A stretch of 64,000 bases of DNA, taken from Acidovorax benzenivorans (GTDB taxonomy: Bacteria > Pseudomonadota > Gammaproteobacteria > Burkholderiales > Burkholderiaceae_C). Of the stretch, positions 36,899 to 38,362 are shown piece by piece. The position numbers and the translations under genes were made by a program. The stretch spans positions 186,001 to 250,000 of the forward strand of contig NZ_JAPCKI010000004.1 in assembly GCF_028680575.1 (NCBI RefSeq), in the 5' to 3' direction. Under the pieces are notes generated by a model, which did not search any database, had not been told where the DNA came from, and saw nothing but the letters and a program-made list of their open reading frames with translations. Position 1 is the stretch's first letter; each line of letters opens with the position of its first letter.

Positions 36899-38362
36899 TC
36901 AGTGCGCGAAGTATTCCACAGCCTGCGCGGCGATGGCCTCGCCATGCTCCTGAACAAAGTGACCTGCATGGGGCAGCACCACCGGCTCGGGGCACCCACG
37001 GATGTTTTGTTGCAACGCCCGCATGGTGGGCAGACCCAGCACGGGGTCTTGGGCGCCCACCACCATCAGGCTGCGGCCTTGCCACTGGTGCTGCCAGAAA
37101 TCGCGGGCCGCACGCGACAGCGCCGCCCCCGCATCATCACACGCTGCGGGGACACGTTCTGGAAATGCGCGCAGCGCGGCCCGGCAACCCTTGTCAGGAA
37201 ATGGTGCGCCATACGCCGCGCACTCTGCCGTACTCAGGTGCGGATTGCCGCGCGCCAACAGGCGCCCCACCTCATACAGCGGCTTGTCGCGGCACATGGC
37301 GCGCCAGTCCACAAAACCCTGGGGCAACGGCGCATCGCCCGTGGCCAGCAGCGTGTTCATCACCAGCAGGCCGCCAAACCGCTCAGGCGTCGCCATGGGC
37401 AGCGTAAGGCCCAGGATGCCGCCCCAGTCCTGCACCACCAGCACGACATTGCGCAAGTCCAGCCGCTCGATCAACTCCAGCAACACCTGGCGGTGCCATT
37501 CGAACTGGTGCACACCCTCCTTCTTGGGCTTGTCGCTTTTTCCAAAGCCGATCAGATCGGGCGCCACCACGCGGTCGCCCGCTGCGAGAAAGGTAGGCAG
37601 CATGCGTCGGTACAAATAGCTCCAGGCCGGGTTGCCATGCAGGCACAGCCAGGTGCGGCGCGCATCGCGGGGGCCTTCGTCCAGATAGTGCAAACGCAGG
37701 CCCGCCAGGCTCGGTAGGTCGCTGACGTAGTGAGGAGCCCAAGGGTAGCCCGGCAGGTTGGCAAAAGCCGCATCGGGTGTGCGCAGGGCGTCGTCACGCA
37801 AGGGATGGCGGGCCAACGCTTCGGCGCGCTGTTGATGGCGGCGCTGGCGGAAAAAGCCGCTGAGCAGTTCACCGCACTCATCGGCCAGCACCCCGCCCTG
37901 CACCTGGGTCTGGTGGTTGATCTCGGCATGGCCAAACAGGTTAAGCACCGAACCAGCCGCCCCCGTCTTGGCGTCTGCAGCGCCATACACCACGCGCGCC
38001 AGCCGCGCATGCAACATGGCGCCGCTGCACATGGCACAGGGCTCCAGCGTCACGTACAGGCTGCAGCCGTCGAGCCGATAGTTACCCAGCCGCTGCGCAG
38101 CCGCTCGCAGAGCCACGATCTCGGCGTGGGCTGTGGGGTCGTGGCCTTCCACAGGGGCATTGCGGCCGGTGGCGATGACCTGGCCGTCCTTGACTACGAT
38201 GGCACCCACAGGCACTTCGCCAGCGCCGGCTGCGGCTTGCGCCTCGGCCAAAGCCAGGCGCATCCAGTGCACATCGTGAGCGATATCCACCGCTATATTT
38301 TTAATAGCTATTGGCGCATGAGGCATATGCGCTTGTAGCCGATTTGGCTCATTTTTTATCAT
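36899..38362 (-). CDS. tadA: tRNA adenosine(34) deaminase fused to haloalkane dehalogenase-like alpha/beta hydrolase
   Basis: Single 487-residue protein with two enzymes. Residues about 30-185 are TadA: zinc/catalytic motif HAEIVAL near 80 and [14 protein letters not shown] near 110, deaminating A34 to inosine in tRNA-Arg. Residues about 205-487 are an alpha/beta hydrolase of the haloalkane dehalogenase type: oxyanion [11 protein letters not shown], nucleophile aspartate in VVQDWGG, acid aspartate in GAQDPVLG, histidine in HAGHFVQEH. The frame is continuous across the junction. The first 25 or so residues come from repeat copy G; starts at M13 or M34 are more likely. Confidence 0.85.
38292..38358 (+). 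repeat. Family 1 repeat, copy G, at the 5' end of the tadA fusion
   Basis: GCTATATTTTTAATAGCTATTGGCGCATG, spacer, CATATGCGCTTGTAGCC and ATTTTTT. It covers the first annotated codons of the opposite-strand tadA gene. Confidence 0.65.

Follow-up and report, generated by a model that had tools for sequence, protein, structure and literature searches.

A haloalkane dehalogenase fused to the tRNA deaminase TadA, and a putative non-catalytic role of the domain in relatives without its active site

Two enzymes in one reading frame

Why should a tRNA-editing deaminase and a haloalkane dehalogenase occupy one continuous reading frame, and what holds them together? The locus that raises this question lies in a window of 64,000 nucleotides (the whole stretch of DNA that was analysed) from Acidovorax benzenivorans, where the minus strand carries a single stop-free frame of 487 aa that encodes TadA followed by a haloalkane dehalogenase (HLD). 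The first-pass annotation of this DNA had described a deaminase and a hydrolase in one continuous frame, a description that is borne out by NCBIfam profiles scoring above cut-off on both halves:

36899..38362, minus strand: tadA-HLD fusion gene, 487 aa from ATG; alternative starts GTG 38290 (463 aa) and ATG 38326
37817..38281, minus strand: TadA (tRNA adenosine-34 deaminase) domain, aa 28-182; NF008113, 214.4 bits against a cut-off of 150; matched by E. coli TadA 1z3a at E 5.5e-51
38120..38128, minus strand: HAE motif, aa 79-81; H, A and E in 78/78 rows reaching the site (80 rows)
38027..38041, minus strand: PCxMC motif, aa 108-112; P, C, M and C in 79/79 rows reaching the site (80 rows)
37793..37816, minus strand: junction, aa 183-190; in-frame ATG or GTG absent
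36908..37792, minus strand: haloalkane dehalogenase (HLD-I) domain, aa 191-485; NF002043, 323.8 bits against a cut-off of 265
37424..37429, minus strand: nucleophile D312 and halide-binding W313, aligned with DhlA D124 and W125
37304..37306, minus strand: second halide-binding tryptophan W353, aligned with DhlA W175
37046..37048, minus strand: catalytic acid D439, aligned with DhlA D260
36959..36961, minus strand: catalytic base H468, aligned with DhlA H289

The fusion may truly start downstream, at the GTG of codon 25 (38290), because 463 aa is the most frequent length of its homologues (40/120 among the matches listed; range 454-497); ATG 1 and ATG 13 are also possible starts. Directly upstream, an 81-aa protein with no Pfam family (38352-38594, minus strand) ends in an overlap with the first ATG of the fusion; 41 of the 80 named loci described below have it close by in the same orientation.

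A long frame arising by chance is ruled out by the family matches on both halves, and a sequencing or assembly artefact by the repetition of the junction in named genomes and in relatives with decayed tails; the frameshift at the junction that the first-pass annotation had raised is likewise excluded, as the same junction is found across many separate genomes.

The TadA half carries the HAE motif, which we take to be the zinc and proton-shuttle motif, and the PCxMC motif, which we take to bind zinc, within a domain above the cut-off of an equivalog profile. The TadA proteins of E. coli, S. aureus and B. subtilis share the zinc motifs with this full-length domain but have a short tail, whereas the fusion ends in a hydrolase domain of ~300 aa. 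In the deaminase search the fusion is the only full TadA match in its genome (G000), where the other deaminase matches reach at most 42% over ~114 aa (6 matches in G000, among the matches listed), and the genome holds one gene for tRNA-Arg(ACG) (G000:C43:2758-2831; 30 tRNA loci scanned, 44 tRNA matches in all). Given that it is the only full TadA match in a genome with this tRNA, the TadA half is presumably needed, and the fusion presumably makes inosine-34 on tRNA-Arg(ACG).

The hydrolase half was claimed earlier to have Asp-Asp-His catalytic residues and the motifs HGNP (aa 242-245) and QDWGG (aa 311-315), and both motifs, like D312, D439 and H468, are indeed in place. Its designation as "haloalkane-dehalogenase-like" can now be sharpened: with both halide-binding tryptophans present, the HLD-I catalytic pentad (D312-W313-W353-D439-H468) is complete, and together with the curated profile match and an alpha/beta hydrolase core with a cap it identifies a haloalkane dehalogenase of subfamily HLD-I, which is defined by the pentad Asp-His-Asp plus Trp-Trp (PMC6920932). 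The AlphaFold model of the window protein is of moderate quality (pTM of the models 0.60 and 0.53, domain contacts not given) and served only to match the fold of the hydrolase half. Compared with the HLD-I enzymes DhlA (Xanthobacter) and DppA (Plesiocystis), the domain has N244 where both have Glu, sits behind TadA, and carries K280 and G392 as fusion-specific residues. As its catalytic residues are kept and its constraint is similar to that of TadA, the dehalogenase half is presumably active, in agreement with the earlier prediction, and probably hydrolyses halogenated alkanes; in the lineage of the window the reaction would proceed through the Asp nucleophile and activation of water by His and Asp.

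Distribution and origin of the fusion

The fusion, which the first-pass annotation had proposed to seek in related genomes, is present there. All 120 homologues among the matches listed (7998 matches) carry both domain sets; of the named loci with the hydrolase half (best 80 of 407), 78 are fused in frame and 2 are open to the locus edge, and among these loci are Acidovorax, Hydrogenophaga, Ramlibacter, Curvibacter, Polaromonas, Limnohabitans, Simplicispira, Caenimonas, Comamonas and Verminephrobacter. Unfused dehalogenases also occur inside the family of the window (f1). At one locus (L131, G356) the reading frame of the TadA half differs in part from that of the dehalogenase-derived half; the fusion is present in four siblings from the same genus, and the split would reflect a frame shift or an assembly error.

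Outside f1 the fusion was seen in one other family of the order draw (f3). That draw contains 28 non-f1 genomes with such a hydrolase; of the 23 loci read, 4 are fused, all in f3, and a TadA frame is absent from the other 19, the remaining 5 of the 28 (frames of 297-405 aa) being left out of the 23. In the class draw such a hydrolase occurs in 13/369 genomes and is fused only in two, both of f1. In the phylum draw it occurs in 26/398 genomes, among which five of f1 are fused (G000, G129, G145, G172 and G247); a TadA-like frame was not found in the other 21 loci, three of which (L480, L481 and L484) also lack a match to the hydrolase motif pattern.

The bare fusion is already noticed in annotation: the Ramlibacter-type protein P0231 bears the database name "candidate bifunctional protein : haloalkane dehalogenase; tRNA-specific adenosine deaminase", which denotes the same fusion and is silent on relics and on a second role. 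We found no published account of the fusion in the open-licence literature, and no description there of the relic tails or of the fusion-specific residues. One published example of dehalogenase mining filters out proteins with extra domains (PMC13355053).

The gene neighbourhood bears on the origin of the fusion. The next gene downstream is:

35835..36845, minus strand: ldcA (LD-carboxypeptidase, family S66), PF02016 and PF17676

This gene follows on the same strand in 77/80 named loci, 70/74 dead-tail loci and 40/45 plain-TadA loci, with the first LdcA match beginning a median of 26 nt (n=74, mostly named), 30.5 nt (n=70, relic) and 17 nt (n=41, plain) past the stop. Because ldcA adjoins fused, dead-tail and plain tadA alike, the simplest account is that the dehalogenase entered between two genes, tadA and ldcA, that were already paired; as the anatomy of the locus suggests, loss of the tadA stop would then have placed tadA and the dehalogenase in one frame. 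Elsewhere in the window, an adenylate/guanylate cyclase domain is joined to an FHA domain (34072-35001, minus strand).

In a 98-row tree the f3 dehalogenases fall among unfused ones; once the dead rows are removed, a branch with support 84 has the fused groups of f1 and f3 together on the same side; and in the TadA tree f3 joins a clade of tailed TadAs (support 0.918) into which seven plain TadAs also fall, two being of other families. The fusions of the two families may have one origin or two. Two unfused dehalogenases, L121 (G112) and L161 (G633, of another family), nest in the fused clade (support 94, quick tree); their nucleophile motif QDWGG and base motif GHF are intact, and position 280 is Leu and position 192 His. 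It is possible that in these cases the domain escaped from the fusion and was transferred to another family.

Loss of the active site and the residues that relics keep

We searched a draw of 399 genomes of the family with the hydrolase half, which matched in 125 at E up to 1e-60, and the 274 genomes without a hydrolase match with the TadA half (72/80, 76/80, 76/80 and 34/34 matching). Of the 399, 263 could be classified: 85 have the full pentad, 5 are one residue off, 116 are relics (one of them cut by a contig end) and 57 have a plain TadA, so that TadA carries a hydrolase-derived tail in 206 of the 263; for the other 136, the TadA locus was not retrieved or could not be located or recognised. 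As the fetched loci are a non-random set, with the best TadA matches and long frames taken first, the shares of intact, relic and plain genomes are no family-wide estimates; moreover, the TadA pattern of the tail survey misses some genes (L034, although fused, was missed). The classified genomes span 106 genera, of which 26 are intact only, 33 relic only and 33 plain only, whereas 11 mix intact with dead, 2 one-off with relic and 1 intact with plain.

Decay reaches into the genus of the window itself: among its 35 classified genomes, 26 retain all five residues of the pentad and 9 lack at least one, while in a further genome, G009, the fusion is divided between contigs; within the family draw this genus is intact only, and its dead members are found among the other relatives. 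Five genomes (G027, G032, G012, G019 and G030) carry a fusion that shares 79-82% identity with that of the window over the matched part; its acid, base and W353 are kept, but the nucleophile Asp has become Gly, and in four of the five Trp313 is altered as well. The Asp-to-Gly change recurs in Verminephrobacter aporrectodeae (L022), there with the Trp kept, and in other relics much of the cap and the back half are gone. In an alignment of 315 tails, every tail of at least 110 aa has six or more of nine selected marker residues of dehalogenases. The dehalogenase profile independently matches three relic tails at 130-170 bits, below the cut-off of 265. The TadA proteins of Alicycliphilus denitrificans (358 aa) and Diaphorobacter sp. 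(378 aa) have the same kind of fused tail, with QDWGG and much of the cap lost, and are named simply TadA. Three loci in the genus of the window (L111, L112 and L113, from G022, G033 and G035) have strongly decayed hydrolase halves and a G+C content of 47-48% here, against 66-67% in two relatives. A plain short TadA (L228, G215) stands in a genus in which the other three classified genomes all carry an intact fusion; therefore, the whole tail was lost there, and a tail can be lost.

Mapped on a tree of TadA only, losses of the active site number 47, 15 and 4 at support thresholds of none, 0.9 and 0.95, where label shuffles on the full tree give a mean of 97.8 and a minimum of 86; on a tree of TadA plus tail, in which relics may attract each other, the corresponding numbers are 10, 6 and 5. 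By these tree-based counts the active site is lost repeatedly, at least 4 times, with estimates from 4 to 47.

What, then, do the relics keep? Three or more of the five catalytic residues are changed in 113 species, which belong to 46 genera; our relic set takes a single species from each genus. These genera retain D312 in 3, W313 in 3, W353 in 11, D439 in 2 and H468 in 4 cases. In contrast, P187, L193, R194, D269, L270, G272, G274, S276, D277 and P279 are kept in all 46, and R189, D191, A192, G221, H242, K278, K280 and H285 in 45. Three kept segments stand out:

37775..37804, minus strand: kept segment 1, aa 187-196; P187 and R194 in 46/46, R189, D191 and A192 in 45/46 relic genera
37493..37558, minus strand: kept segment 2, aa 269-290; D269, G272, G274, S276, D277 and P279 in 46/46, K280 and H285 in 45/46
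37166..37207, minus strand: kept segment 3, aa 386-399; P387 in 42/46, G392 in 43/46, A399 in 43/46; dN/dS 0.131 in dead tails (aa 385-400)

Comparison with unfused dehalogenases separates residues general to the fold from those tied to the fusion. D269 to P279 are nearly fixed in unfused enzymes too and are general to the dehalogenase fold. K280, however, is kept in 45/46 relic and 38/38 intact genera, and occurs in 0/41 unfused dehalogenases (one has Arg) and 0/4 f3 fusions; Gly392 occurs in 43/46 relic genera versus 1/41 unfused enzymes, and Ala192 in 45/46 versus 8/41. H285 and A399, present in 15/41 and 16/41 unfused HLDs, are weaker evidence for fusion-specific retention, and R189 is not comparable, as the site precedes the start of nearly all unfused enzymes. 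The unfused set was chosen by the QDWGG/S and GH motifs (the motif-less L131 is a broken frame), so that its 41/41 intact pentads are partly a matter of choice. Read from the sequences, the result is a double separation: the domain that is fused and without predicted catalysis retains the fusion-specific residues, and the domain that is free with predicted catalysis (L121 and L161) loses them.

The residues are not kept for want of time, given how low the median pairwise identities among relic genera are: 0.47 for aa 187-310, 0.21 for aa 311-384, 0.56 for aa 385-400 and 0.32 for aa 401-487. In the dead tails, dN/dS at aa 385-400 lies below the 0.20 of TadA, the middle (0.47) and C-terminal (0.44) parts are relaxed, and the tail front stands at 0.325 versus 0.155 in intact fusions. 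Decay without selection is ruled out by these ratios together with the fixed residues.

A putative second role of the domain

Since the catalytic residues are lost and the domain is nevertheless kept in the relics, something other than catalysis holds it on TadA. We consider it likely that in the window an intact, probably active dehalogenase has also gained a putative second, non-catalytic role tied to TadA. The domain would have taken on this catalysis-free role; in many relatives the active site is gone, often along with the cap, yet a remnant is kept that is predicted to fold and has a fixed set of residues. With somewhat less confidence we extend this reading: in Comamonadaceae and close kin the haloalkane dehalogenase would have become a standing non-catalytic domain of TadA, in which dehalogenation is dispensable and the lasting benefit goes to tRNA editing, because the active site has been repeatedly discarded and the fusion-specific surface kept. 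As a guess, the conserved N-terminal part of the domain and the PFPD segment could brace the TadA dimer or add a grip on tRNA; Lys280, Arg189 and Arg194 are basic and would suit contact with tRNA, and the remaining residues would fit a brace for the dimer or for folding.

Of the two explanations that the first-pass annotation had offered, co-expression only is hard to hold, because the domain without an active site stays fused and constrained: 46 relic genera keep it together with the fusion-specific residues under purifying selection. The other, an RNA- or base-related catalytic activity, is not supported as the reason why the fusion persists, the catalytic residues being what the relics lost, while an RNA-related role of a non-catalytic kind is possible.

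The strongest rival, which we nonetheless regard as unlikely, is that the tail is a passenger held by a ratchet: fusion occurred by stop loss only, the enzyme decays, and the folding of TadA has come to depend on the first part of the tail with no function gained. The relaxed middle and C-terminal parts of the dead tails, the many degrees of decay among relics and the loss of the whole tail at least once (G215) would all suit such a course; K280 and G392, however, lie far from the junction and are kept by nearly all relic genera where unfused HLDs have them in 0/41 and 1/41, and aa 385-400 are constrained more strongly than TadA itself, which favours a gained second role. Considerably less probable is a retained small-molecule pocket that would act as a sensor, or support chemistry without the Asp nucleophile, and so regulate TadA. 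Although the DxxGxGxS loop and the PFPD segment of the cap are among the residues kept, both being conserved in active enzymes too, occupancy is only 0.25-0.44 at aa 343-375 and 0.26-0.45 at aa 427-447 (103 rows, some nearly intact), and many relics are without much of the cap and back half, so that little of a pocket would remain.

Hardly credible is an internal start that additionally yields a free dehalogenase: a Shine-Dalgarno-like stretch with an in-frame ATG or GTG stands at or near the junction in 4/4 f3 fusions and 29/179 other fused loci (a permissive motif count without a chance control, in which some of the 179 are the same genome twice), but a scan of the window junction found no in-frame ATG or GTG, and near its two TTG codons (aa 183 and 188) no Shine-Dalgarno-like stretch was seen by eye, so the two separate proteins envisaged earlier are not indicated here. 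The four f3 loci (L115, L162, L163 and L164), with such a stretch and an in-frame ATG at the junction, perhaps make a free dehalogenase too, and so may four loci of Ramlibacter, Hydrogenophaga and related genomes (L043, L049, L055 and L066), which have an in-frame junction ATG and such a stretch as well.

The fusion has consequences for annotation and for the use of TadA. Calls of "haloalkane dehalogenase" in Comamonadaceae genomes can be TadA tails, some of them dead, and should be read with caution. TadA is the deaminase used in adenine base editors, and a base-editor structure with TadA-8e is among the structure matches of the TadA half; the fused tails are natural, long-tolerated C-terminal partners of TadA. 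If the proposed second role is true, a metabolic enzyme has come to serve a tRNA-editing enzyme as a structural or RNA-side part, and living species that span the range from intact enzyme to a remnant without an active site would provide a natural series for the origin of a pseudoenzyme.
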